Shown here: positions 288-56,416 of the stretch, piece after piece
Position numbering within the stretch: position 1 is the stretch's first letter
How the letters are laid out: each line of letters starts with the position of its first letter
Assembly: GCA_030531085.1 (NCBI GenBank)
Contig: JAUNOM010000016.1
Span: 1-56,416, forward strand
Source of the DNA: Prevotellaceae bacterium
GTDB lineage: Bacteria > Bacteroidota > Bacteroidia > Bacteroidales > Bacteroidaceae
Length of the DNA: 56,416 nucleotides
Direction of reading: 5' to 3'
Program-made: the position numbers and the translations under genes
The notes under the pieces: generated by a model
What the model was told of the DNA's origin: nothing
The model's input: the letters and a program-made list of their open reading frames with translations, nothing else
Database searches by the model: none

Positions 288-680
288 TCAATACATTGAC
301 TGACAATATTCTATGCCTTTCTTATCAAGGAACTTCTTTATCTCATCAAAAGACGACTGCCCATAAGGTGCGAATCGCTCTGCAATGCGTTTTACCAGCG
401 TCTTACCATCACGGGCTGAGAACTTGCAAGCAAGTTTCTGTACTGCATCGCCTTCTATCGTGAGAAAGTATTCCAAGTCATCGTCTCCATACTCTTCCTC
501 CAAATCATGCCCACTTATGTTTTTGCAAAATTGCACTCTGTGGAAACGGACATAAACCATCTCCACCTCAACACTCACACAATCGTTACAGGTCTTGTCA
601 ATATTTGGCCATTCCGCAATAGTTTCATTGAAGAACGAATGAGTACGATACTCTCTCTTATATGATGTTATAGATGCCAT
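288..680 (-). CDS. Hypothetical protein, last gene of the dynamin cluster
   Basis: A 130-residue soluble protein with no signal peptide or membrane segment, and I do not recognise the family. The middle is acidic (LEEEYGDDDLEYF). The C-terminal 45 residues (RDGKTLVKRIAERFAPYGQSS, then FDEIKKFLDKKGIEY) look like a small helical domain. It is the last gene in the minus-strand run that includes the dynamin-like GTPase. A 107-nt gap with two overlapping hairpins separates it from the gene upstream, so it may be expressed at a different level from the rest. Base composition is AT-rich like its neighbours. An immunity or accessory role is possible, but nothing in the sequence shows it. Confidence 0.6.
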   Translation of the reverse strand: MASITSYKREYRTHSFFNETIAEWPNIDKTCNDCVSVEVEMVYVRFHRVQFCKNISGHDLEEEYGDDDLEYFLTIEGDAVQKLACKFSARDGKTLVKRIAERFAPYGQSSFDEIKKFLDKKGIEYCQSMY

Positions 681-708: not shown

Positions 709-754
709 GCTTATGCCTAAAAAGGCATAAGCGATGGAGATTACCCCATCGCTT
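709..754 (-). promoter_or_regulatory. Two mutually exclusive hairpins between cluster genes
   Basis: GCTTATGCC (709-717) pairs perfectly with GGCATAAGC (724-732). AAGCGATGG (729-737) pairs perfectly with CCATCGCTT (746-754). The arms share bases 729-732, so only one hairpin can form at a time. This lies between the 216-aa and 130-aa genes of the dynamin cluster and could attenuate or process the transcript. No long U-tract follows either stem on the minus strand, so a simple terminator is not certain. Confidence 0.5.
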
Positions 755-787
755 ATATAGAGCATGATGTGTCCTTATTCCTATCAG

Positions 788-1438
788 TTAGAAAACATCA
801 TAAGCATCCGTCGTAATTTTGTCATTGAATGACAAACGTCCACTAGACTCAACAAGCTGAACACTGTCTTTGCAGACATTTGTGAAGAATTGGTTTCGGT
901 CGTAAGAATCTGCACGTGCCTCATACCCAGTATATTCTTTATCCAGTTTGAATCTCATGGCTACATAGTCGAACTCTTTTACGAAACTATCCATGTTTGT
1001 CGTTCTGTTGAACTCCATCTTTACGTTGGAATTATTGTATTGAGAGTCCGTACCTACCCACATTTTCATGGCATTCACGAAAAGGTCTTCCTCGATACCA
1101 GCATACAACGCTTTTTTTTGCTTTATTGTCTCAATTAGCGCATTGGCATCATCAGCCTTCATAAACAGAACTAATACTGTCGGCTTTACTTTTTGAACAA
1201 CTGTAGCTTCTTTGCGTTCTCTATCATGAGTTGAAACATTGTCATTACTCTGTTTACAATGCTGTTTCAGTTTTTGGCTCTTGTCTCTTTTGTCTTGTCC
1301 AGATTTCTGAATGCGCTTACCTTTTTTTATAAGATACTCACCTATGCATATTAGTTTTTCTCCAAATTTTTCTTCTGTCAAACCCATAGTATCAAGATAT
1401 TCTGCTTTCAGTATATCTAAAATGTCTTCTTTAGTCAT
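788..1438 (-). CDS. Hypothetical protein coupled to the dynamin-like GTPase
   Basis: A 216-residue protein of unrecognised family. The first 45 residues look helical, residues 45-80 are Lys/Gln-rich and probably disordered, and residues 83-216 appear to be a globular domain starting with a hydrophobic strand (VKPTVLVLFMKADDANALI). There are no membrane segments. Its ATG overlaps the stop codon of the upstream GTPase gene (ATGA at 1435-1438), so translation is probably coupled and the two products are likely made in fixed ratio. A partner or effector of the GTPase is a reasonable inference. Nothing identifies an enzymatic activity. Confidence 0.65.
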   Translation of the reverse strand: MTKEDILDILKAEYLDTMGLTEEKFGEKLICIGEYLIKKGKRIQKSGQDKRDKSQKLKQHCKQSNDNVSTHDRERKEATVVQKVKPTVLVLFMKADDANALIETIKQKKALYAGIEEDLFVNAMKMWVGTDSQYNNSNVKMEFNRTTNMDSFVKEFDYVAMRFKLDKEYTGYEARADSYDRNQFFTNVCKDSVQLVESSGRLSFNDKITTDAYDVF

Positions 1439-4020
1439 AATTCCATCAAGTTAAAATTTGACATACTTTGCACTTTATCACCCATTGTGTCGAATGCATT
1501 CATATCTATGGCAGCATTTGCGTTAACACTATTTATCTTGTCATCCAAAATGGATGATGTCATTTCTGCTACCTGCCGAGCAGATTCTCTAATGTTCTCC
1601 ATATACGATGCGACACTCTTCTTAATCCAGTCCATGATGATGGTCCAAAATGGAGCAAAAGAACTGTCTATTCCAGCTTCCCATCTCAAATATACGGCTT
1701 TTGAGTTCTCGTATTTGTAGATGTAATATGTGTCATAAACAGTCTTGTATACAGCATCATTAGAGCTGCAGCTGTGAGTTTTGTAATGGTCAAGGACGGA
1801 ACGTCCTTCACTTATCTCATCACCAGCAGTCCCTTGTGGCGTAGTAAACATAAATAGAGTATCTGGCATTACAATTTTATGCTGCTTCACATTCATTAGG
1901 TTGTTGATGAGAACAGAAAGATCAGTATCACCAGCTCTCAATTTCGTCTTTAGTTCTTTTAGTATTTTGTTGAGCTCAAGTCGCAGATATTTGTTCAGTA
2001 CTTTTATAAAAGTATCTGTGTCAAGCTGAAAATAAAGATTAGTTTTCTTTGACAGCACATCACGCATTCTAACATCAACAGCGTCATATGTCGCTTTTGT
2101 CTGGTCTTCCCATTCTTTTGTGTAACTCTCCGAAGCTTTCTTGTACCAACACATATCTTGCTTGTGTTCTTCAAAAGTCGAAAATCTTTCATAAAACAAA
2201 GCAAACAGTGCTGAATATTGACTGCCCAAACTTTCTGCCAACACAGTTGGCATGGTCTTGCTCGCCAATTCAATAAACTCTCCCCTTGTCTTTTTGTTAT
2301 CAATAGATGTACGGAATGGCGTGATGACCTCTGCTAACAATCTTTTTTTGATGTTATCAGGAATACTCGAAATTCCATTGAACACTCCGACTGAACGGTT
2401 ATCGTCTTTAATAGAATTAAGATATTTGATTACCTTATCCGCTCCTTGCAAACTTTGAAGATTCGTTGTAATTTCCCCTATAGAGTTATTTATGTCCTCT
2501 ATTTGGGCATCAACATAGCCCAATGAGCGAGTTCCTATGTCCTGTCGCAATTTTGCAATAGTACTATTTATGTAATTTAATGCGGCAGCAGTTTTTATCG
2601 TATTCACATCAGCTGCGATAGCATCAAGTTCTTTGCCGATGGCATCAAATGATTCTTGTTTGTTTGTTCCCAATAGAAACATCTTCATCTTGAGAACGCC
2701 TAAACGCTCACTGCACAAATCGAGCTTCGATGATTTCTTGTTTATGTTGATATATGATGTAACATCGGCAACTAACTTCTTTAAGTTGTTGTTCAAGTCA
2801 TACATAACGGGGCGTATAATTACTTCCGTAAAAGAATTGCAAATGCGGTTATTCAATTCTTCATAGAACTCTGTAGCGTGACTAAGACGGTGACATAGTT
2901 TATCAAATATGCACAGTTCTTTAAGAGGTATCTCTATACCTCTTTTTATACCTTTGCGTATGATACCCAAGGCATCTTCCTCTTCATCTGTTAACGTCTC
3001 TTCGTATCTAGCAAAAACATTTGCACAATCATTAAATAGCTCTTTAAGTTTTTCTGCATCATATCCAATTATAGTTCCCTTGTCATCCTTCTTCAAAGAC
3101 TGTTCTATATGGTATAATAGCATACCTACAAATGGAATTATCTTTATGTCAGTTTCATTACCTAAAGACAAACGTTGACGGATTATATCGGTTAGTCCTA
3201 TTACTTTAACCCCATCATGTACACCTCCATTTATGACGGTTTCAACAGGAACATCGACACTGGTTACAGAATCCACCTTGTTCAAGATGAATAGCAAAGA
3301 TTCTGTATTCCCGTGCATCGCTTTGATGATAATTTTCAGTTCGTCTAATAATAGTTCAAGTCTATCATTGCTTACAGAATTAAAATCTATCGCAATCACA
3401 CGAAACGACTTGTCCAATGCGCTCTGAATGACTTCAAGGTTCTTATAATCGGTCAATGTCTTCAGTCCAGGCAAATCTACGAACTCTACAGAAAGATTCT
3501 CTGGAAGATTGAGCAATTCTTTATTTGTTTGCCACAATAATGGACCCGATACCGTAATTTCGGGGGCAGCCGCTGTCTTAACAAACGTTTTATATTTGTC
3601 ATACACATCCACAATCATGCGATAGATTTCTGCATCGCTAATGTTGTTGGTTGTGCCAACATTCCATCTCGCTCCTTGTGTCCTCTTTATTTTTATCGAC
3701 CGAGAAGTGTTATGATACAACCTTAACACGCCTGCACTCGTTTCTTTCCTTTCCATAGGAGCAACTTTTCTCCCTGACAACGCATTGACAATAGTAGATT
3801 TGCCAGCAGAAGTTGTTCCCACCATCGCAATAGACAGGACAGGATTTTCCAACCCTTGTCTTGCCTTCTCTTGTGCAGAAAAGAAATCGGCAAAACTTTT
3901 TAAGAGCATTCTGTTGCCCTTAAAAGCGGCTTCGTTCATATTGAACAACTCGTGTGCAATGCTGCCGACTTCATTCACACGAGACAATGCCGCATCCAAT
4001 GGTTGTTGATTGTTCAGCAT
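1435..4020 (-). CDS. Dynamin-like large GTPase
   Basis: An 861-residue protein with a dynamin-type GTPase domain near the N-terminus. The P-loop is GTTSAGKS (residues 68-75), followed by a Thr-containing switch region (about 93-95, ETSAG), the G3 motif DLPG (182-185) and the G4 motif NKVD (247-250). GTTSAGKS is typical of bacterial dynamin-like proteins rather than of translation or Ras-type GTPases. The remaining 600 residues are mostly helical, as expected for the stalk. I see no clear transmembrane hairpin, so membrane binding, if any, may come from a partner. The start overlaps the upstream coiled-coil gene by 7 nt and the stop overlaps the next gene by 4 nt. Bacterial dynamins remodel or fuse membranes, and some act in phage defence or toxin secretion. 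A defence or membrane-stress role here is inferred from context. Confidence 0.85.
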   Translation of the reverse strand: MLNNQQPLDAALSRVNEVGSIAHELFNMNEAAFKGNRMLLKSFADFFSAQEKARQGLENPVLSIAMVGTTSAGKSTIVNALSGRKVAPMERKETSAGVLRLYHNTSRSIKIKRTQGARWNVGTTNNISDAEIYRMIVDVYDKYKTFVKTAAAPEITVSGPLLWQTNKELLNLPENLSVEFVDLPGLKTLTDYKNLEVIQSALDKSFRVIAIDFNSVSNDRLELLLDELKIIIKAMHGNTESLLFILNKVDSVTSVDVPVETVINGGVHDGVKVIGLTDIIRQRLSLGNETDIKIIPFVGMLLYHIEQSLKKDDKGTIIGYDAEKLKELFNDCANVFARYEETLTDEEEDALGIIRKGIKRGIEIPLKELCIFDKLCHRLSHATEFYEELNNRICNSFTEVIIRPVMYDLNNNLKKLVADVTSYININKKSSKLDLCSERLGVLKMKMFLLGTNKQESFDAIGKELDAIAADVNTIKTAAALNYINSTIAKLRQDIGTRSLGYVDAQIEDINNSIGEITTNLQSLQGADKVIKYLNSIKDDNRSVGVFNGISSIPDNIKKRLLAEVITPFRTSIDNKKTRGEFIELASKTMPTVLAESLGSQYSALFALFYERFSTFEEHKQDMCWYKKASESYTKEWEDQTKATYDAVDVRMRDVLSKKTNLYFQLDTDTFIKVLNKYLRLELNKILKELKTKLRAGDTDLSVLINNLMNVKQHKIVMPDTLFMFTTPQGTAGDEISEGRSVLDHYKTHSCSSNDAVYKTVYDTYYIYKYENSKAVYLRWEAGIDSSFAPFWTIIMDWIKKSVASYMENIRESARQVAEMTSSILDDKINSVNANAAIDMNAFDTMGDKVQSMSNFNLMEL

Positions 4021-5369
4021 AATCTTTTTAATCTTGAACGTTCAAGTATCTCGTTTGCTTCTTGGATGAATTCCTCGTCTTGCAAGTCGGGATTAGACTT
4101 CACTATAACATCGATAACATCGAGGTCTTTCAAGTTTTCATCGTCTATTGTTTGATCCCAATTTTTTATAAATAAGCCCAAAGCCTTAGTTGCAAAAGGC
4201 TCAATTATGTTCTCACGATTGACGAAAGAGAACTTCAATCTTGAAAATGCACATGCAACATCAAGGTACATCTGCGAAAGCAACGTCTTGTCGCTCTCTA
4301 TTATTTCAAGACTGTTGAGAAGCGTATAGTAATAGTCCTTCAAAGACGGCATCATGAACTCTATACCAGGCAATGTGTGTAGTATGCTCGGTAACTTTGG
4401 CAGCGTTTTGTATTCCAACAGATGATAGGCATCGGCATACATTCCCGCCATACAACAGAAAATTCCAGAAATTGTAGATTCCATCTTCACCTTGACGGCT
4501 TCGTTGATTTCAGGGGCTTCGTCCAAGAACGAAAGCATCTTTGCCTTTTCCTCTCCTGTTACGCCTTTGTCTTGTATTTCCTTGATAATGGAAATATTGT
4601 GCAACAACTTCTTCGAGTAGAGATTAGTGGCATAGTTCATGTCTTGCGCCAACTTAACCATAGACAATGTTTCCTCATATACAGCCTTTATGTAAAGCGG
4701 TTTGAGTTCCAGTCTGCCGAACTCAAATCCAGCAGGATAGTTAAGTTCCTCGCCCAGACCCCACGACCACACCTTGAAGATAAAAGTCTTACCATCGTTG
4801 ATAAGTGTGGGCGACAGCACCATTACGGGCTGTTTTTTCAGTCCTGCATACAGATAGTTCACTGAAGCATCGTTAGACGGCACATCGTCTTTCCATGCGC
4901 CTATTTCCGATACGACCGCATGAACGCTGTTCGTGGGATAAAAATTAACAATGAATGAAGATAAGTTGCCATTGATTGTCCGAGCAAAAGGATGATCTTT
5001 GTCTTTCAGTGAAGAAATCAGACGACATGGCACTATAATATTATTGTCGAAATAGGACTTGTCGTTAGATATAGGCTCGCAAATCTGCATCTCAAATGGA
5101 TTGCGTAAAGGCCAACATCTTTCATAGTACGTCTTCTGCTGCCACAAATCTAAAGCATATTCGTGTGCCTTTTGTGCTTCGACAAGCCTCTGCTCGTGAC
5201 TCATTCTTTGGAGTTCCAATTTGTTTTGGAACTCTTCTTGCTTTTCTTTGATGCGCTTTTCTTCCGCTTTCGCATCGGCATTGGTGATTTTTTTCCAGCC
5301 ATCCTTTACGACAGGAGCTAATAGGCGAGAAATCATCACACCAGCCCATAAAGTTAGAGGGTCAATCAT
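4014..5369 (-). CDS. Coiled-coil protein paired with the dynamin-like GTPase
   Basis: A 451-residue protein. Residues 1-25 (MIDPLTLWAGVMISRLLAPVVK) form a hydrophobic or amphipathic segment that could attach to a membrane. Residues 30-80 are a charged coiled coil (KAEEKRIKEKQEEFQNKLEL and onward). The rest is a globular, partly helical domain of unknown family. Its stop codon overlaps the GTPase start by 7 nt, which suggests coupled synthesis and a physical complex. Two-gene arrangements of a membrane-associated coiled-coil protein and a dynamin are familiar in bacteria (for example paired bacterial dynamins, or LeoA with its neighbours), but I see no sequence match. It may be the membrane adaptor for the GTPase. 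Confidence 0.65.
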   Translation of the reverse strand: MIDPLTLWAGVMISRLLAPVVKDGWKKITNADAKAEEKRIKEKQEEFQNKLELQRMSHEQRLVEAQKAHEYALDLWQQKTYYERCWPLRNPFEMQICEPISNDKSYFDNNIIVPCRLISSLKDKDHPFARTINGNLSSFIVNFYPTNSVHAVVSEIGAWKDDVPSNDASVNYLYAGLKKQPVMVLSPTLINDGKTFIFKVWSWGLGEELNYPAGFEFGRLELKPLYIKAVYEETLSMVKLAQDMNYATNLYSKKLLHNISIIKEIQDKGVTGEEKAKMLSFLDEAPEINEAVKVKMESTISGIFCCMAGMYADAYHLLEYKTLPKLPSILHTLPGIEFMMPSLKDYYYTLLNSLEIIESDKTLLSQMYLDVACAFSRLKFSFVNRENIIEPFATKALGLFIKNWDQTIDDENLKDLDVIDVIVKSNPDLQDEEFIQEANEILERSRLKRLC

Positions 5370-5387
5370 GTTTGTAATATTATGAGA

Positions 5388-5798
5388 TTAGAAATGTTTA
5401 TCATATCCATGGCCACAGTTCGTGCAAACCATACCAAAAGTACCTTCAAATGAGCGACAGCCACAATGATATTCTGTGCAATGGCAGCCCAGTCCAAATG
5501 AAATTTGAGAGCTTCTTGTAGGACGATATTGTGTATGCTGTTGTTCAACATCTTCTACCGCATTGGCATCGTCTGAAGAAGAATCAACAAATCCTTCAAA
5601 ATCGTTGTCACTGTCAATACCCACCTCTTCGTCATTGGTAAACGTATCGTAGAAATTGCCTGTATCTTCGTGCAATTCATCTTGAGAATCCACGTCTACA
5701 CTATCGTCATTGGATACATCGACATCTTCAATCACGTTGGAATCCGAAGTATCTATACCATCGAATGTATCTAAATTTCCAAAAATTCCATCAAACAT
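5388..5798 (-). CDS. Acidic protein with C-terminal Cys/His zinc-binding tail
   Basis: A 136-residue protein in two parts. Residues 1-90 are very rich in Asp, Glu and Ser and almost certainly disordered. The last 35 residues contain GCHC, HCGC, CTNC, GH and KHF, a compact set of Cys and His residues that should bind zinc. The spacing (CxC, then F, then CxxCGH, then H) looks like a small treble-clef or ribbon motif. The gene sits 18 nt before the coiled-coil gene and 26 nt after the 69-aa gene. Its Asp-rich part resembles the C-terminal tail of the 164-aa protein encoded upstream in the same run, which hints that both tails do a common job. I do not recognise a named family. Confidence 0.65.
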   Translation of the reverse strand: MFDGIFGNLDTFDGIDTSDSNVIEDVDVSNDDSVDVDSQDELHEDTGNFYDTFTNDEEVGIDSDNDFEGFVDSSSDDANAVEDVEQQHTQYRPTRSSQISFGLGCHCTEYHCGCRSFEGTFGMVCTNCGHGYDKHF

Positions 5799-5824
5799 AT
5801 ACTTTCTTATTTAACGATTAGATT

Positions 5825-6034
5825 TTATTGCTTCTTGGAAGTTGGGGAGGACAGATTTGAGAATTCTTTATTATTCTTCCTATTTCCCTTTCCCATTATC
5901 ATTCCTAATATGAACCCGGAAAGAAACTGAGACAACAGAGGTATAAAGGATGACGTTTGATTTGACGGTTTAACGTCTTTTCTGCCTTTTGTATTGTTTC
6001 CAGATTCGAGTATTTCTTCTCTGTCTATATACAT
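5825..6034 (-). CDS. Small membrane-type peptide, 69 aa
   Basis: The protein has a charged N-terminus, one hydrophobic stretch at residues 29-48 (FIPLLSQFLSGFILGMIMGK) with small-residue spacing (GxxxGxxxG-like), and a basic Ser/Asn-rich tail. One membrane pass or an amphipathic pore-like helix would fit. It lies 13 nt after the C39-like peptidase gene and 26 nt before the zinc-tail gene. A small hydrophobic peptide beside a C39-type peptidase recalls bacteriocin loci, but there is no double-glycine leader, so a processed peptide is only a guess. It could equally be a toxin or membrane anchor for the complex. Confidence 0.55.
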   Translation of the reverse strand: MYIDREEILESGNNTKGRKDVKPSNQTSSFIPLLSQFLSGFILGMIMGKGNRKNNKEFSNLSSPTSKKQ

Positions 6035-6047
6035 ATTCCTAATGTTT

Positions 6048-6605
6048 TTAATTAATGCTTACCATGAAATTACCTGAATCATCCCAAGCATCCTCAAATT
6101 GATTGATGGGATAACCTGCACAATAATCACCAGTGCCAGGGTCTATGATGTTCACTATGCCGTCTGTGAAATCCTCGTTGAAGTCCATTCCACCGACAAT
6201 TAAAGCATGGTCTGCTTGTTGTCCGCGGAGAAGATCCTCAAAGGTCTCATCTGGGCCAGGATTCCATAGCTCACCAGAGTCAACACCAACAATGACGGGA
6301 TGCCCTTTGCTCAACTCACTTACGAGGTTGTACATTGAGCCATGCTCGATTTGCGTAACATCCATACCGTGGTTTTCTAATAGCTTACCTACATCTTCCA
6401 TCGGTGTGCCTTGTCCAGGCTTATACCAACCATTTTGATACGCTTCGTTACGTAACTCATCTTCCGTCAAGTTCAAACCTGCCGAATTTAGGATGAGTTC
6501 TTGCGACTTGATGGCGCAAGTATCATCGTATTGCTGCTGCACATTCTCGGAAAACAGGTTCTCCGTTGGCAGTCCAAAGAGTGTTGTTGCATTTTCTGTT
6601 GTCAT
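6048..6605 (-). CDS. C39-like papain-fold cysteine peptidase
   Basis: A 185-residue single-domain protein with the features of the C39-like (papain-fold) peptidase family: a Gln-rich stretch before the catalytic Cys (QQQYDDTC, C30), the catalytic His in ADHALIVGG (H133) and the third residue in NIIDPGTGDY (D155). There is no ABC transporter part, signal peptide or membrane segment, so it is expected to work in the cytosol. Its start overlaps the stop of the acidic 164-aa gene (ATGA), and the 69-aa gene follows 13 nt later. Stand-alone C39-like enzymes are poorly studied. In this setting it could cut the acidic anti-sigma-like protein, one of the other acidic proteins, or a host target. None of the neighbours has a clear Gly-Gly site. 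Confidence 0.8.
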   Translation of the reverse strand: MTTENATTLFGLPTENLFSENVQQQYDDTCAIKSQELILNSAGLNLTEDELRNEAYQNGWYKPGQGTPMEDVGKLLENHGMDVTQIEHGSMYNLVSELSKGHPVIVGVDSGELWNPGPDETFEDLLRGQQADHALIVGGMDFNEDFTDGIVNIIDPGTGDYCAGYPINQFEDAWDDSGNFMVSIN

Positions 6606-7096
6606 AAATCATCAGGATTAAAACCATCGAACGAGCCATCACTATTGATGTCGTCATCTGTATCTATAGAGTCGTCATCATTCAGAAAACTATCATCATT
6701 GTCTGAGAAAAAAACATCACTTCCTGATACGAAATCGTCTGTAATGCCACAAAAAGCGGGGGATGCCACCGCTGCAACCATTCCGAAGTCATCTATGTTG
6801 GGCGTGATGTCAATATTTAACGGATTAAATACACCTGCCAATGGAACATTAGGCAAGTCAATATCATCTATACCATTAGTGCAGAAGTCGAGTGAAAACG
6901 TATCATCGGAGGCGTGTATATTATCTACACTATCCACCAATTCACCAATCTCTGCATTATTTGCAATGCAACTATCCATAACTGCTGCATCCGCAGAGCC
7001 AAGTGTTCCTTCGCAATATGCTCCCAGCATCTCTTCCGATACGGGAAGGTCTTGCATGTCGCTTATATGGTTTATCAGTTCGCTGTAGTCAATCAT
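6602..7096 (-). CDS. Acidic anti-sigma-like protein
   Basis: A 164-residue protein. Residues 10-55 (LPVSEEMLGAYCEGTLGSAD, then helical residues) resemble the helical N-terminal domain of anti-sigma factors, including the L...AY.EG.L pattern, but the HxxxCxxC zinc motif of ZAS proteins is absent. The second half is Asp/Ser-rich and disordered, ending in a run of DD and SFDGFN repeats. It overlaps both neighbours by 4 nt (ATGA): the sigma factor before it and the C39-like peptidase after it. This position and N-terminus make it the likely partner or inhibitor of the sigma factor. It may also be the peptidase substrate. Both are inferences. Confidence 0.6.
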   Translation of the reverse strand: MIDYSELINHISDMQDLPVSEEMLGAYCEGTLGSADAAVMDSCIANNAEIGELVDSVDNIHASDDTFSLDFCTNGIDDIDLPNVPLAGVFNPLNIDITPNIDDFGMVAAVASPAFCGITDDFVSGSDVFFSDNDDSFLNDDDSIDTDDDINSDGSFDGFNPDDL

Positions 7097-7707
7097 ATCA
7101 AGCCCTCCTTTCTCAGCATTTCACAAAACTGCGCTTTCGCCCGCTTATGGACGTTGTAGTAAACGGCCATAGTTATGGCGAGCAGTGCTGCAACTTCTTC
7201 GTTTGTCTTTTCCTCAACGTAGCGTAACTGTATGAGACGGCAATATCGCTCACATGGCATCATTGAGAGTATCTTGTGCAAATCTTGCATATTCAGAGCT
7301 TTTACTTCTGACTGTAAAGAGTCGCACTCGAAAGCGAATCTATCACTTGGGGTGATATTATCTTCTGATAAGTCCCTCTTCTTCGTGAAAAGTTGGTGGC
7401 AGAAGTTTTCTGCAACTATCTTTAACCACATAGTGAGTGAACAACGATAACCAAAGTCTTGCAACTTGCAATGTCCTGTTTCTTTGTGTGGAAAAAGGAT
7501 ATATACATAAATCTCGTTAATGAACTCAAATACGTTGTCGCAATCTGTGTAGTACTTGTTGTATATGGCAGAGAAGAGGGGGTAACACTGACGGTAGAGG
7601 AACTCCTTAGTTGTATAGGAGTCTCTCCTAAGAATAGCCGAGACAATCTGTTGCTCGGTTACTTCTTGACCGTGTATCAGCCACGTTTTGCTTGCCGTGT
7701 GTTTCAT
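7093..7707 (-). CDS. ECF-like RNA polymerase sigma factor
   Basis: A 204-residue protein with the layout of sigma-70 family ECF factors. Region 2 spans about residues 30-110 ([29 protein letters not shown], then [13 protein letters not shown]). Region 4 spans about 140-195 and holds a helix-turn-helix ([20 protein letters not shown]). The sequence is divergent from housekeeping ECFs. Its start overlaps the stop of the DUF445 fragment and its stop overlaps the start of the acidic protein, so it is the first complete gene of the tightly coupled run. Self-activation of the cluster after loss of an inhibitor is the usual logic of such genes. I could not identify its target promoter. Confidence 0.75.
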
Positions 7708-7919
7708 GCTGTTTTCGCGTCGGTTATTGATCGTTTATGATAAAGACAACTTCGACCTTTCTCCTTTGGAATAATGCCAGGTGTAAAAGGGATGTGAATA
7801 CCACAAATGTATTTTGCCTGACGAGGCCGGAATAGCATCCTAATTGCAATATCATTTGTGATATAGCCTATAATACCTCCTAAGGCAGGAGCTAATATAT
7901 ATGATAGTTCAAAATTCAT
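7704..7919 (-). pseudogene. Truncated DUF445 membrane protein
   Basis: The 71 residues from the ATG at 7919 match the start of DUF445 (YheB/YjiN-like) membrane proteins: a hydrophobic opening ([20 protein letters not shown]), LFRP, then [13 protein letters not shown], the conserved first block. Family members run to about 350-450 residues. Here the match stops directly after EKGR, and 15 unrelated residues lead to a stop that overlaps the sigma-factor start (ATGA). The gene was probably cut when the sigma/dynamin cluster arrived or rearranged. The fragment still lies in frame to couple translation into the sigma factor. Confidence 0.65.
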
Positions 7920-7990
7920 ATTGTTATTTTTAATCTGTTTAATATAAGGAAACGATAGTGAGAATTCTTCTATCAATTCTTCGCTAAATA

Positions 7991-8731
7991 TTATTCAAGT
8001 AAAGTCGATTTTTCCAAAAAAACACTCGGAACATATGCCGTTGCCACAGTCAGTAAACCATCTATCACAATTCCCACTCTCTGTTGTCCTTGGTAACGAG
8101 CGACGGTTCCAGTTACTCCTTTGAACTTTCCTTCGATAATCCTTACCACTTGTCCCTTTTGAAACTTATCTATCCTATCTGTAGATATGATAATTTCATC
8201 CGCATCGGCAGCACAGATGATTTTTAAACTATCCATCTGATAGTCAGGAACTATCATAGGAATCTTCTCTATTCTGCGACCAACGTGGACGTGTCGATAA
8301 TAAAAACGAAGGAATGGGAGGTTTACGTTGTCGTAAACAAAAGATTTGAGTTGTTCTTCTGTACCGTAGGCGAAGAAGATATTTGGTAAACGAGACTCGG
8401 TAACAACTTTGCGCTTACCTTTTATAAGTTTTACAGTGTCTGTAGTAGGATAGAAAGCAGTGATGCCTTTGGCTGTCATATAGTCGTATGCCTTTCCCTC
8501 TCTACCATAAGTAGTACGTAAGGCATACCAATGAGGAAAGTCTTCCTCTTTTTGCGCTTTAGGCTTACTTGCTATATGGGCATTTCTGGTGGACACCCCA
8601 GTTTGTGAACTCTCAGCGGAAACAGTGCTTTGAGCTTCGGGGAGGGCGTTGGAGGTAAGTCCAGCGCAAGGAGGGAATTCACCACCTCCTGGGGTGTGTA
8701 CATCTTCTGATGTCCATTCATCAACTTTCAT
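7991..8731 (-). CDS. upxY: UpxY-family transcription antiterminator (NusG-like)
   Basis: A 246-residue protein with a NusG N-terminal domain from about residue 65 ([20 protein letters not shown]) and a KOW domain near 190-230 ([20 protein letters not shown]). UpxY proteins bind elongating polymerase and let it read through terminators in the leader of the operon they head. They normally lead capsular polysaccharide loci, but no capsule genes follow here. The downstream co-directional genes are the DUF445 fragment and the sigma/dynamin run. The first 60 residues are extra and low-complexity compared with typical members. A start at 8731 is the longest option, and a later start is possible. A structured leader with a terminator-like hairpin lies directly upstream (8763-9236). 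Confidence 0.85.
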
Positions 8732-9886: not shown

Positions 9887-11176
9887 CTATGCCTTTTTTG
9901 TGTTCGTATTATCGCTGCAAACATTCCCGAATGTGAATTCCTCAATGTGATTGAGTTGTTGGGACAACTTTTCTACATCCTTGCTCAACTTTTCCTTGGT
10001 AATCTTGGCGTACACTTGCGTGGTCTTGATGTCTTTGTGACCAAGCATGGAACTTACTGTTTCTATTGGTACACCATTGGAGAGGCAAACCGAGGTTGCG
10101 AACGAGTGCCTTGAGACATGCCAGGAAAGTGGCTTGGTGATACCGCATTTCTTTCCCAATCTTTTGAGCGAACGCAGACAACTTCTATAAGGTGGTACAG
10201 GAAAGACTCTGCCATCCTTGCACAATCCACGATATTTCTCCATTATCTGCTTGGGATAGTCAAGCAACTTGATGTCGGCTTCCGTTCCTGTCTTCTGTCG
10301 GTGGATAACAATCCACTCGCCATCGTCAAAAAATGTCTTGATGTTCTCTTCCTTCAAGTTGTACAGGTCAATGAATGCGAGACCTGTGAAACAGCAGAAT
10401 AGATATAAGTCACGCACCAACCCCATATGTTTTCTGGTGATAGGAGTTTCCATCAACAGGTGAATTTCTTCTTTTGTCAGAATCTCCCTTTTTGTTTCCT
10501 CGTTCTTGTACTCGTATCGTCTGAAAGGGTCTTTGACGAGCCACTCGTTATCAATCGCCCGAAAAATCATGGCACGGAGATTACGGACAAACACCATTGC
10601 GGAATTTATCTTCAGTTGCTTGTCTATTCTAAGGAATGTCTCATAGTTCGTAATAAACGGCAGGGACAATTCTTTCAAGGCAATGTCCTTTACACGATAA
10701 TGCGACTGCAAAAACTCGCCCACGTAAGCACAACCGATTCTATATTTTGTGAATGTGCTCAAAGATTTCATGCCAGCCTTGTATTGTTTTTCCATTTCAT
10801 CCCTGCTTTGCTCATAGACTTTCATCAAGGTATGGCAGCGATACTCCAATCCAAGAAAGGCGTTCTTAACCTTGTCGGCAGTGACGAAGTTGTCTCTGTC
10901 CATAATCTCCTGATAATGCTTGCTGATACTCACACGCATTTTGTCCAGTTTGCGGTTCACCTCCAAGGCTTGCATACTTTTTCCAGTCATGCGTCCGCCC
11001 TTGGTGTCCCACAAATTGGGATTCGCAGTCATCTTGCAACTGAACTGCGCCTGTGTTCCGTCCACAGTGATACGTCCCATAACAGGAACTGTACCATCTT
11101 TCTTTACTACCTGTCTTTTGAGGTAGAAGATAATTGAAAATGTACTCTTCATAACGTCATTCTTTTTTGCGTTCAA
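9887..11176 (-). CDS. Tyrosine recombinase of an integrated element
   Basis: A 429-residue tyrosine recombinase with three parts: an N-terminal arm-binding domain (about 10-100), a SAM-like core-binding domain (about 110-220) and a C-terminal catalytic domain. Catalytic residues visible are the Lys of RQKTGTE, HVSRHSFAT (HxxR), GHKDIKTT and the nucleophile Tyr in TTQVYAKI. The first catalytic Arg, normally in a TGxR motif, is replaced (FTGLAFIDL), as in the IntDOT branch of Bacteroides conjugative transposons. It marks the right end of the left island. The neighbouring GTAAC-type repeats at 11241-11372 are likely its arm sites. An alternative start lies 8 codons in, at 11152. Confidence 0.9.
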   Translation of the reverse strand: MNAKKNDVMKSTFSIIFYLKRQVVKKDGTVPVMGRITVDGTQAQFSCKMTANPNLWDTKGGRMTGKSMQALEVNRKLDKMRVSISKHYQEIMDRDNFVTADKVKNAFLGLEYRCHTLMKVYEQSRDEMEKQYKAGMKSLSTFTKYRIGCAYVGEFLQSHYRVKDIALKELSLPFITNYETFLRIDKQLKINSAMVFVRNLRAMIFRAIDNEWLVKDPFRRYEYKNEETKREILTKEEIHLLMETPITRKHMGLVRDLYLFCCFTGLAFIDLYNLKEENIKTFFDDGEWIVIHRQKTGTEADIKLLDYPKQIMEKYRGLCKDGRVFPVPPYRSCLRSLKRLGKKCGITKPLSWHVSRHSFATSVCLSNGVPIETVSSMLGHKDIKTTQVYAKITKEKLSKDVEKLSQQLNHIEEFTFGNVCSDNTNTKKA

Positions 11177-53720: not shown

Positions 53721-53785
53721 ATATGACCTCCCACGCTTCCCGTAGACCAGCGCACCCGGGGAGGTCTTCGAGTTTTTATAGGTTT
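53721..53785 (+). ncRNA. Candidate structured RNA upstream of the Abi protein
   Basis: GACCTCCC (53725-53732) pairs with GGGAGGTC (53759-53766). Inside it CGCT (53734-53737) pairs with AGCG (53749-53752) around a short loop. The structure starts at the predicted transcription start and fills the leader up to the Abi start codon. Work on AbiF-type proteins describes an upstream non-coding RNA that pairs with the protein as an antitoxin or guide. The match here is in layout, and I did not align it to known examples. Confidence 0.55.
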
Positions 53786-54607
53786 ATGTCTATAAACACA
53801 TATAACAAGAGACCTTTCTGTTTGTCTGAACAAGTGGATAAACTTGAAAGCAAAGGACTGCTTTTGGATGACAAGAAAGAAGCGGAACAATTTCTTTTTG
53901 ACGTAAGCTATTATAGACTCCGTGCATATACTTATCCATTTCAAGACAACAGTGACGGTGGTGAGCACTTGTTTGTAAGGGATGACATCCATTTTTCTAA
54001 AATCATAGACCTTTACAAATTTGACCGTGACTTACGTTTCTTGCTTTTCAATGCTATTGCAAGAATTGAGGTCTCCATTCGTGCCCGTATGACACAAATC
54101 TATTCAGAGGAGAGAAGTGACAGCCATTGGTTTCTAAATAAAGAGTTATATCGTTGTGATTTTGACAAACTTATAGATGATATTGCCACTGATGTAGACC
54201 GAAGCAATGAGGAATTTATAAAGCATTATTATAATAAGTATGATGAGCCAGAATTGCCTCCATGCTGGATGTCCCTTGAAGTGGTTTCATTTGGAACGCT
54301 CAGCCGCCTTTATCAATCATTAAAGAAGGATGATAATAAGAAACGGTTAGCCCAATCATATGGCATAGCGGACATAAGTATGTTTGAAAATTGGCTTCAT
54401 GCCATCTCTAATCTTCGTAACTGCTGTGCACATCATGGCAGAATATGGAACCGCCGTTTTATGGTCAATATGGTTCTGCCCTACAATACATCACGACTGT
54501 TTATGGACAGAGAAAGTTTGAGTACAATAAAGCGTAACAAACTATTCCCATTACTGTCTGCCATTAAATACCTTTTGGATTCCATAGATGTATTTAGAAG
54601 GGTGTAA
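53786..54607 (+). CDS. Abi_2/AbiF-family abortive infection protein
   Basis: The ATG at 53786 gives 273 residues. A longer frame (from 53723) would translate the hairpin RNA and is rejected. The N-terminus (NKRPFCLSEQVDKLESKGLL) and the sequence LFDVSYYRLRAYTYPFQ are typical of the AbiD/AbiF (Abi_2) family. RNCCAHHGR carries an RxxxxH motif, the HEPN RNase signature. Such proteins limit phage growth by cutting RNA. Together with the upstream hairpin RNA, this resembles the RNA-paired Abi systems proposed as relatives of Cas13. It is AT-rich relative to the core, consistent with recent arrival. Confidence 0.8.
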   Translation: MSINTYNKRPFCLSEQVDKLESKGLLLDDKKEAEQFLFDVSYYRLRAYTYPFQDNSDGGEHLFVRDDIHFSKIIDLYKFDRDLRFLLFNAIARIEVSIRARMTQIYSEERSDSHWFLNKELYRCDFDKLIDDIATDVDRSNEEFIKHYYNKYDEPELPPCWMSLEVVSFGTLSRLYQSLKKDDNKKRLAQSYGIADISMFENWLHAISNLRNCCAHHGRIWNRRFMVNMVLPYNTSRLFMDRESLSTIKRNKLFPLLSAIKYLLDSIDVFRRV

Positions 54608-54782
54608 CCAACTGCACACAATGAGAAACACTTGCAAATAAACCGCTGATTATCAATGTTGTTTGAATTTTAACACTTCCTAGTCAGTTTTTGGTGCTTC
54701 GACATTTTCCGTATAATTTTGTGACGTATTTCTATCGCGGTGAATGTACGGGGCTTTATTTTTGCCACAAAATTCAAGTCCG

Positions 54783-54890
54783 GTGACAAAGGTTGACAAC
54801 GGTTCACAGACAGCGACAAAAGGCTGGGCGAAATGCGAAAGTTGTCACAAAAGTTAAGCAGGTTGATAACAAGTGACAATAGTTGACTTC
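54783..54890. repeat. Cluster of GTGACAA/GTTGACAA repeats
   Basis: GTGACAA occurs at 54783, inverted at 54842 and direct at 54873, with variants GTTGACAA (54792), GCGACAA (near 54813), GTTGATAA (54862) and GTTGACTT (54882). They lie just before the HTH gene of an integrase module, so recombinase or excisionase arm sites are likely. No gene is supported in 54608-54948. Confidence 0.5.
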
Positions 54891-54948
54891 CGTTCACTTC
54901 CCGATGGAATACACAGAAAAGAGTGTAAAACATTAAAATAAGGGAAGA

Positions 54949-55884
54949 ATGAAGACAACCAAGAAATGCGCATTTTGCGGCAGGACTTTCACGTCCAACA
55001 GCGGTATGCAGAAATATTGCTCCGTTAGCTGCGCTGACGAAGCCAAGAAAGAGAGAAAGAAAAGGAATGAAGATTTCCTCAAGGCTGCAGAACCTGTTAT
55101 GGGACTGAAGCAGCAGGAGTACCTCACCTTTTCCAAGGCGGCTATCCTTATGGGCTGCTCGCGCCAGTACATTTATAAGCTCGTGTCGCAGGGCAAGCTG
55201 AAAGCCTCACGTATCAGCAGCCGTATGGCTTTCATACGCAAAGCCGACATCGAAAAAATGCTGGATGGCAACCCTTATAATAAGGTAGTGTTCGGCAACC
55301 GACCGAAACCAACAATTCTTAATCAGAGTCAGAAGAAGCAAGAAACCGTACCCGTTTCTGACGAGCCTTTGACTTACCTCTCCGGTGAGGAGGTGATGTC
55401 CATTTATAAGGTAAAACAGATGTGGCTTTACACCACCGCCAAGCGAAATCAGATACCCATGTGTCGTATTGCCGGAAAGAACTATTACAGCAAAAGCCAT
55501 GTGGAGGACTGTCTTGGACTGACCGTTGACACCTCTACTATTACCGAATGGCTCACAACTGATGAAGTGTTCGAGGAGTTTGGCATGAAGGCTACAGCAA
55601 TTCGTGCCTATGCTTATCGCCACAGCATTCCCACCAAGAAGGAATACGGCATCACCTATTATTCAAAGACACACCTTGCGGAACTGCGACAAATTGATTT
55701 GGTTGAAGACGAGCGTTATTGCACCGTTGATGAGGTGTCAGAGAAATACGGACTGTCCAAAGCCAACATCCACCATATCACCAAAGTTCATGGCATAGAG
55801 AAGAAGAAAGTGGGTGTAAGAAATCTACTACTTCGTGCCGATGTAGAGCGTGCAATGGCAGAAAGATCCGCAAAAGGACTGTAA
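54949..55884 (+). CDS. Zinc-finger, triple-HTH regulator of a mobile element
   Basis: A 311-residue protein with an N-terminal zinc finger (CAFCGRTF, then YCSVSC) and three excisionase-type helix-turn-helix units: LTFSKAAILMGCSRQYIYKL (about 60-100), YLSGEEVMSIYKVKQMWLYT (about 140-180), and a third region starting WLTTDEVFEEF with VDEVSEKYGLSKANIHHITK. This architecture accompanies integrases of Bacteroides mobilisable elements and may act in excision. It lies 213 nt before a tyrosine recombinase gene in the same direction. Confidence 0.75.
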   Translation: MKTTKKCAFCGRTFTSNSGMQKYCSVSCADEAKKERKKRNEDFLKAAEPVMGLKQQEYLTFSKAAILMGCSRQYIYKLVSQGKLKASRISSRMAFIRKADIEKMLDGNPYNKVVFGNRPKPTILNQSQKKQETVPVSDEPLTYLSGEEVMSIYKVKQMWLYTTAKRNQIPMCRIAGKNYYSKSHVEDCLGLTVDTSTITEWLTTDEVFEEFGMKATAIRAYAYRHSIPTKKEYGITYYSKTHLAELRQIDLVEDERYCTVDEVSEKYGLSKANIHHITKVHGIEKKKVGVRNLLLRADVERAMAERSAKGL

Positions 55885-56097
55885 ATTCGTTCCTTTTCCA
55901 TTGATAACACGATTATCCGTCAATTATCATCATTAATTGCCATCAACGGCATATCATTCAGTTCCTTTGCAAAAGCGAAAACAGGCTGCACCTCGGCATA
56001 ATTCAAATAAATTTGATTCTGCTCTCAGTTTGCACTGTCTTTGCAGCGTGGAGATAGTCTCCACCAAGTAACATTCATAAATAACAAAGAAAAGACT

Positions 56098-56416
56098 ATG
56101 AGTAATATCTGTAAGACCGTGAACCTTTACACACGGAAAATCAAGGGCGGCAAGATGCTGTCCTACTTCCTCGACTATTATCCCGGCTACCGTGACGAGA
56201 CCACCAACAAGGTGCTGCGCCATGAATCGCTCGGCATCTACATCTACGCTCACCCGAAGACACAGCGTGAGAAGGACTACAACGCACGACTGTCAGAGAA
56301 AGCTGAAGCACTGCGATGCCGCCGCTATGAGGAGATTGTAAATGAGCGTTACGAGTTCTTCGACAAGAACAAGCTGAACGGCAGTTTCATTGATTACTTC
56401 AAGAAGTACGCAGGAA
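56098..56416 (+). CDS. Tyrosine recombinase, partial (runs off window)
   Basis: The ATG at 56098 opens a frame that reads MSNICKTVNLYTRKIKGGKM, then LSYFLDYYPGYRDE and ESLGIYIYAHPKTQREKDYN, the arm-binding N-terminus of Bacteroides phage-type integrases (SAM_5 group). It is open to the edge of the window, so the catalytic part is not visible. It follows the triple-HTH gene and should start a second mobile element extending to the right. Confidence 0.85.
   Translation, partial: MSNICKTVNLYTRKIKGGKMLSYFLDYYPGYRDETTNKVLRHESLGIYIYAHPKTQREKDYNARLSEKAEALRCRRYEEIVNERYEFFDKNKLNGSFIDYFKKYAG

Follow-up and report, generated by a model that had tools for sequence, protein, structure and literature searches.

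A recurrent gene cluster with a sigma factor, a C39-like peptidase and a dynamin-like GTPase in a Prevotellaceae bacterium

Why should an extracytoplasmic function (ECF)-like sigma factor, an anti-sigma-like protein, a C39-like cysteine peptidase and a dynamin-like GTPase be encoded together in one tightly packed run of genes? The question is raised by positions 788 to 7707 of contig JAUNOM010000016.1 (assembly GCA_030531085.1) of a Prevotellaceae bacterium; the whole stretch analysed, 56,416 nucleotides (nt), is called the window. We found the cluster to be a real, recurrent combination, undescribed as far as searched. Judged from its sequence, the operon could be an inducible stress or immune module in which a peptidase-gated sigma/anti-sigma switch drives a dynamin-based membrane response, probably in defence, and we place the chances of this reading just short of even. 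The features concerned, with lengths in amino acids (aa), are as follows.

7093..7707, minus strand: ECF-like sigma factor, 204 aa
6602..7096, minus strand: anti-sigma-like protein, 164 aa, with an N-terminal anti-sigma domain and an acidic tail
6048..6605, minus strand: C39-like cysteine peptidase, 185 aa (Q24, C30, H133, D155)
5825..6034, minus strand: 69-aa peptide with a single hydrophobic segment, the weakest gene call
5388..5798, minus strand: acidic protein, 136 aa, with a C-terminal Cys/His (zinc-ribbon-like) tail
4014..5369, minus strand: 451-aa protein, no assigned fold
1435..4020, minus strand: dynamin-like GTPase, 861 aa (GTTSAGKS, DLPG, NKVD)
788..1438, minus strand: 216-aa protein, no assigned function
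726..757, minus strand: terminator-like hairpin of 14 pairs with a T-rich tail, after the eight-gene unit
288..680, minus strand: 130-aa protein beyond the hairpin

Gene order and recurrence of the cluster

A preliminary description of this DNA had reported eight same-strand genes that overlap or lie within 26 nt of each other, followed after a gap by a 130-aa gene. The coordinates of all nine frames on the minus strand agree with it: the spacings across the eight genes are -4, -4, 13, 26, 18, -7 and -4 nt, and 107 nt more lead to the 130-aa gene. The hairpin at 757-726 has the longest stem among 10 terminator-like sites in the first 12 kb, and it lies inside this 107-nt gap, for which reason the eight genes are treated as a unit. 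Sites of this kind are no more numerous than in shuffled sequence (mean 8.5), so that the hairpin is only supportive.

The whole order is kept in a second genome of the same genus. There, the locus L004 carries genes for a sigma factor, an anti-sigma domain fused to a C39 domain, the zinc-tail protein, the 451-aa protein, a dynamin, a 190-aa protein and a 127-aa protein, in the order of the window, and the core of sigma factor, anti-sigma-C39 protein and dynamin is found in other relatives as well. Since the order is conserved in this way, the cluster is not a set of genes that occur unlinked in relatives, the outcome that would have spoken against a common system. Between the window and L004, identity reaches 72% for the 451-aa protein, 63% for the dynamin and 52% over about 170 C-terminal residues for the 216-aa protein, and in the position of the 130-aa gene L004 encodes a protein with weak similarity (23% over 60 aa, E 1e-4). 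The ratios of nonsynonymous to synonymous differences per site (pN/pS) in this comparison are 0.20, 0.30 and 0.48 for the 451-aa, 861-aa and 216-aa proteins, respectively, with synonymous sites near saturation (pS 0.73-0.87). Zinc-tail counterparts were found in L004 and in L005, a locus that also encodes a 451-aa protein (40% identical) and two other dynamin-like GTPases; because the contig of L005 begins within the cluster, no peptidase is seen there.

The 69-aa, zinc-tail, 451-aa, 216-aa and 130-aa proteins gave no Pfam matches. For two of them the preliminary description needs correction. The 69-aa membrane peptide does have one hydrophobic segment, and it has no counterpart in L004, where only 17 nt separate the flanking genes; the supposed coiled-coil protein of 451 aa is charged and helical-looking, by eye, over its first 80 residues or so and not over the rest, and sequence search found no relative of it in the PDB.

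Beyond this pair of genomes the distribution becomes patchy. Of 149 related genomes, 3 gave a match to the window dynamin (its own, one of the same genus and one weak). The 451-aa family looks rare: a scan of genome contigs that reaches close relatives returned two loci, and among 393 genomes of the order only its own genome and one weak match appeared. Matches to the fused anti-sigma/C39 profile are more widespread, with 13 of 393 genomes in the order (its own included), 11 of 395 in the class and 19 of 395 in the phylum, the matches in class and phylum being mostly to a single domain; they added two full C39 loci (G937, G866) to that of the window. In the class of G937, close members occupy the same 2 of 98 genomes, and the other places are C39 domains inside giant frames. 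A phage origin was considered and set aside: the peptidase, the only protein searched by tblastn against phages, had no match there, and scans of viral contigs, which reach close relatives only, contained none of the 451-aa protein, the peptidase or the dynamin. No plasmid-borne 451-aa protein was found, and plasmid copies of the peptidase family amount to 27 records.

The sigma factor, its putative inhibitor and the peptidase

As a single sequence, the window sigma factor scores below the cut-offs of both NCBIfam sigma70-ECF (39.3 bits, cut-off 42.9) and Pfam. The assignment as ECF-like is borne out by a 13-member family profile, which aligns nearly full length with solved ECF sigma-E/H chains (positions 6-183 at best, E 1.2e-4 to 3.3e-3) and includes both the sigma2 and the sigma4 region of an ECF sigma factor.

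The neighbouring 164-aa protein contains 39 aspartate or glutamate residues and no lysine or arginine. An anti-sigma N-domain profile was made from 13 other loci, with the window protein excluded, and was run on 281 window open reading frames (ORFs) and 281 reversed ORFs; residues 19-61 of the 164-aa protein were the top match (E 6.4e-4), followed at 0.02 by the 451-aa protein. The best match among 562 sequences thus fell on the very protein that had been called acidic and anti-sigma-like, and its gene adjoins the sigma gene, the arrangement seen with the N-terminal domain of class I (zf-HC2-like) anti-sigma factors. According to the alignment, the HxxxCxxC zinc ligands are missing from the window protein and from most relatives; they are present in L023 (zf-HC2 E 0.008, 16.7 bits, below the 22.2 cut-off) and, by eye, in L027, and every zf-HC2 match in the relatives is below the Pfam cut-off.

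The 185-aa protein exceeds the Pfam cut-off for Peptidase_C39_2 (34.9 bits, cut-off 24), and its Cys-His-Asp residues, C30, H133 and D155, are those named in the preliminary description. In an alignment of 18 peptidases, C30 and H133 are invariant and D155 occurs in 15. An upstream glutamine, Q24, at what we take to be the position of the oxyanion glutamine of C39 enzymes, is present in 9/9 dynamin-linked peptidases, which all have the full Q-C-H-D set, versus 0/9 of the others; the peptidase of L041, outside this alignment, has by eye a glutamine six residues before the cysteine. The classical C39 double-glycine processing peptidase is part of a bacteriocin ABC exporter. None of the cluster proteins has a transporter domain by Pfam, and the window enzyme is not of this classical double-glycine kind. 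In the C39 tree, seven TIR/RyR loci separate from the rest at 96/97, with little resolution among the rest and long branches for L023 and L038.

To place these genes in context, nineteen C39 loci were compared: the window, L004, L014-L025, L027, L028 and the plasmids L037 (Anabaena sp. 90), L038 (Rhodococcus qingshengii) and L041 (R. opacus). Left out were anti-sigma-only matches, RyR-region matches (G110, G477, G520), C39 domains in frames of 1000-2800 aa (G887, G1088, G1131, G1170), partial weak matches (G950, G1021), eight giant-frame places in the class of G937, 24 of the 27 plasmid records and L005. Eight neighbourhoods among the rows left out were inspected (L029-L036), with no match for the gene calls in L030 and L032; further anti-sigma-like proteins, named by eye, match the same N-terminal profile, and the one in L036 adjoins a match to the sigma profile.

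In 17 of the 19 loci the peptidase has a same-strand sigma gene nearby. In 14 of them (the window, L004, L014, L015, L017-L025 and L027) the next gene downstream of the sigma gene is the anti-sigma or anti-sigma/C39 gene, with an overlap in all except L017, where the spacing is 22 nt; in L016 the sigma gene lies upstream by three genes, in L038 and L041 downstream by two. The anti-sigma domain is encoded in these same 14 loci, in 13 as a fusion with C39 and in the window by an overlapping gene of its own; among 500 ORFs of the remaining five loci the anti-sigma profile found no match. This fusion, in 13 of 14 loci and directly downstream of the sigma gene, strengthens the earlier suggestion of a link between the peptidase and the anti-sigma-like protein. 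In L017 and L018 a hydrophobic segment follows the peptidase, together in L017 with a CarboxypepD_reg-type domain (30.1 bits, below the 32.2 cut-off), a predicted membrane anti-sigma layout. Between residue 50 and the start of the aligned peptidase domain, all four fused dynamin-linked proteins have 60-129 aa, which would give room for a cleavable linker; the corresponding distance is 5-19 aa in 7/7 members of the TIR/RyR clade, and 42 and 50 aa in L017 and L018. L027 and L028, sisters in the C39 tree (97/98), differ in that the former has both sigma factor and anti-sigma domain and the latter neither, a pattern that suggests a joint gain or loss of these two.

Two smaller observations concern the sigma neighbours. 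The sigma factor of L016 (9164-10051) belongs to the same family as that of the window (41% identity) and ends in an acidic C-terminal tail that contains cysteine. Very acidic small proteins (31% aspartate plus glutamate, D+E), with N-termini alike by eye, are encoded between the C39 and sigma genes at L038:8660-8992 and L041:8740-9153 and are candidate sigma inhibitors or substrates.

From these features a mechanism can be proposed. The sigma factor would be bound and kept inactive by the anti-sigma domain, which is tied to the C39-like peptidase by fusion in most relatives and by gene overlap here. A signal would activate the peptidase; this might be a disturbed membrane or a phage product, with the 451-aa protein, the dynamin or the peptidase itself as the sensor. 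The active peptidase might then cut the acidic linker or tail beside the anti-sigma domain. The freed sigma factor would switch on its own operon, and the dynamin-like GTPase, with the 451-aa and acidic zinc-tail proteins as partners, would act at the membrane.

Several results weigh against this scheme. L028 and L037 combine the peptidase with dynamins and have no sigma gene within the stretch fetched, and L016, L038 and L041 have a sigma gene and no domain matching the anti-sigma profile, so that peptidase and dynamin do not depend on the sigma switch. The survey profiles (A1, A5) include the anti-sigma region and may inflate the counts of sigma and anti-sigma linkage. The distances of sigma factors and peptidases correlate at r 0.46 in 15 loci, 0.41 in 14 and 0.92 in the seven TIR/RyR loci, and at -0.09 in seven dynamin/transmembrane loci; co-evolution of the two is weak support. 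No conflict-type gene was recognised downstream in L024 and L025. Finally, half of the 18 aligned peptidases have no Q24, so that part of the family may be catalytically dead.

In one alternative, the peptidase would process its acidic partners or the dynamin directly, as an effector-activating protease of the kind found in proteolytic cascades, with the sigma pair setting only the level of expression. The peptidase occurs with dynamins in L028 and L037, which have no sigma gene, and in L016, which has no anti-sigma domain, and very acidic small proteins recur beside it, with 24% D+E in the two of the window and 31% in the two of Rhodococcus. The fusion to the anti-sigma domain in 13 loci nevertheless ties the peptidase to the sigma switch, and we consider direct processing rather unlikely.

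The missing glutamines bear on a different alternative, in which the C39-like domain is a sensor of a ligand or protein and not a protease, and the anti-sigma domain lets go through a change of shape or through general proteases such as ClpXP. Besides the loss of Q24 in 9 and of D155 in 3 of the 18 peptidases, the RyR domain behind the peptidase in five fused proteins (L019, L020, L022 and L024 by Pfam, L025 by alignment to them) and the short linkers of the TIR/RyR clade are in keeping with such a role. C30 and H133 are kept in 18/18, however, and all nine dynamin-linked peptidases are complete, and a purely sensory domain seems to us quite unlikely.

As a separate observation, membrane proteins with sub-cut-off matches to Slo-like RCK (potassium channel) domains adjoin RyR-domain genes at L022:6803-8878, directly upstream of the sigma gene, and at L033:9987-12224.

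Dynamin-like GTPases and variable neighbours

The 861-aa protein scores 48 bits against Pfam Dynamin_N (cut-off 27), and with its G1, G3 and G4 motifs (GTTSAGKS, DLPG, NKVD) it has the GTPase domain of the dynamin superfamily, in agreement with the original assignment; none of its hydropathy windows reaches 1.5. Outside the GTPase domain, weak PDB matches of the dynamin profile to CSM1 and Nucleolar protein 58 were judged chance coiled-coil matches.

Dynamin-like GTPases lie near the peptidase in 10 of the 19 loci (the window, L004, L014, L015, L016, L027, L028, L037, L038 and L041). The genes of L027, where the contig end cuts the dynamin, and of L028 were assigned to the family by phmmer, and that of L038, so named in its record and within the same family, is separated from the peptidase by 3.6 kb, with two genes of the opposite strand in between. 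This pairing of peptidase and dynamins spans the Bacteroidota, Cyanobacteriota and Actinomycetota, on plasmids in the latter two. Hsp70-type genes accompany six of the ten (L014, L016, L028, L037, L038, L041), and none is present in the window. L014 and L037 both carry a DO-GTPase-like gene pair, with one member of each pair above the Pfam cut-off; a chromosome of the phylum Bacteroidota (L014) and a cyanobacterial plasmid (L037) thus share much of the same dynamin, Hsp70 and DO-GTPase set.

In the remaining nine loci the cargo is of a different kind. Genes for TIR (below cut-off in L020), SIR2-like (just below cut-off), nSTAND1, FGE-sulfatase, M48 peptidase or protein kinase proteins accompany L019, L020, L022 and L023, and L021 has an M48-like neighbour by similarity. 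Further signs of defence or mobility are a CRISPR-type array of 98 copies at L028:13135-19600, called from repeats alone and about 0.7 kb from the peptidase gene, a pair of HigB toxin and helix-turn-helix (HTH) genes adjoining L015, and the plasmid copies, as well as the recombinase and truncated DUF445 gene of the window (described below).

The conflict or stress system envisaged in the preliminary description is upheld in part, as to the recurrent gene set, the anti-sigma domain, the complete catalytic residues and the conflict-type genes beside related modules; the dynamin pair that it invoked is a single dynamin in the window. Related sets in distant bacteria may represent an undescribed inducible stress or anti-phage module. 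A bolder version, which we regard as doubtful though worth stating, is a phylum-spanning form of inducible immunity. In it, one cytosolic protein, the C39-like peptidase, would be sensor, anti-sigma factor and trigger together, severing itself on infection from the anti-sigma domain to free its own sigma factor and so firing swappable effectors: dynamins with Hsp70 or with the 451-aa/zinc-tail pair, and TIR, STAND or SIR2-like proteins in the other branch.

The operon could instead serve in envelope stress or membrane repair, in the manner of mycobacterial IniA or Bacillus DynA, with no part in defence. According to the accessible parts of the sources, DynA of Bacillus reacts to damaged membranes and postpones lysis by phages, although it does not stop their replication (PMC8844932), and dynamin-Hsp70 pairs are known in cyanobacteria (PMC5827413). 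Set against this are the patchy presence (13 of 393 genomes in the order, and close relatives in 2 of 98 for the class of G937), the 27 plasmid records and the TIR, STAND or SIR2-like genes in four related loci, and a role confined to stress or repair strikes us as somewhat improbable.

Known systems and the surroundings of the cluster

A defence role for bacterial dynamins has a parallel in LeoA-LeoBC, the system known as Eleos. Some of the relatives' dynamins match the PADLOC models of LeoA/LeoBC over much of their length (L037 2e-26, L014 1.8e-19), whereas that of the window matches LeoBC only at residues 39-107, around the GTP-binding motif, and reaches 18.3 against a cut-off of 325 for NCBIfam LeoA. 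With PADLOC giving the window only these Leo matches at the level of the GTP motif, assignment to a known defence system was rejected. We know of no C39 peptidase or anti-sigma fusion associated with IniBAC or DynA. The cluster resembles IniBAC (IniA/IniC) and DynA (PMC8844932, in the part available) in having a dynamin that might protect membranes, as theirs do.

The closest tested precedent for the proposed logic is Craspase (type III-E CRISPR CASP), in which, according to the part of PMC10028731 available, Csx29 cleaves Csx30, an inhibitor of the ECF-like sigma factor CASP-sigma. A protease, a sigma inhibitor and a sigma factor are likewise encoded in one defence locus there, and cleavage relieves the inhibition. 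The cluster differs in that its proteins have no match to Cas7-11 or to the Csx29/CHAT protease (Pfam, PADLOC) and no CRISPR RNA (crRNA) was found; it has a C39-like protease, in most loci joined with the anti-sigma domain in one protein, and a dynamin operon follows.

Three other groups share parts of the arrangement. In the cyanobacterial dynamin-like "chaperone group" a dynamin-like GTPase adjoins a DnaK/Hsp70-type gene, as in six of our loci; the words "peptidase" and "operon" and any sigma link are absent from the available text of PMC5827413, and the window differs further in its lack of Hsp70. The GTPase-centric and peptidase-cascade conflict systems (Kaur et al. 2020, PMC7159879) combine, in the portion available, a constant regulatory core with variable effectors, and their DO-GTPases and Hsp70 recall L014 and L037; sigma, C39 and dynamin are not words of the main text, and the window has no DO-GTPase match by Pfam. 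Systems in which an ECF sigma factor accompanies caspase-EACC2 (Kaur et al. 2021, PMC8195603) likewise place an ECF sigma factor and a cysteine peptidase in a conflict operon, as far as the accessible text goes, although the peptidase has a caspase fold, not that of C39, and dynamin, C39 and anti-sigma do not occur as words in that text. Neither dynamin nor C39 occurs in the texts of PMC11237479 and PMC12839542. The preliminary description knew of no system with this gene set, and a search of titles and the beginnings of abstracts in the open-licence PubMed Central (PMC) literature found none either; a description elsewhere is possible. On its predicted domains, the cluster would belong with NTPase-centred conflict or stress operons under proteolytic sigma control. 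If the proposed mechanism is true, a protease can convert infection or membrane damage into a sigma-factor response along a second path, independent of CRISPR, and bacterial dynamins, whose signals mostly remain obscure, gain a defined on-switch; the fused anti-sigma/peptidase is an easy genomic marker for uncharacterised modules.

The surroundings of the cluster raise one more explanation, that a mobile element assembled unrelated genes with no common function. A tyrosine recombinase (integrase) is encoded at 9887-11176, 2.2 kb upstream. At the cluster edge, a DUF445 gene (7704-7976) is truncated to the first 40 profile positions, and its stop overlaps the sigma start codon; it is the sole DUF445 match in its own genome, which is 81% complete, and is possibly an insertion scar. 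The G+C content is also lower on this side, at 0.38-0.42 across the first 12 kb, 0.46-0.56 for most of the remainder and 0.43 at the right end. The common order in L004, the peptidase with dynamins in three phyla and the overlapping starts and stops argue for a functional unit, and chance assembly is very improbable.

Between the integrase and the cluster lies a gene for an UpxY-family transcription antiterminator (7991-8731, 143.7 bits). At the opposite end of the window, positions 53723-56415 hold an Abi_2 abortive-infection protein (192 bits), an HTH_17/MerR-type protein and the beginning of a second integrase-like gene (Arm-DNA-bind_5), which is another mobile or defence patch.

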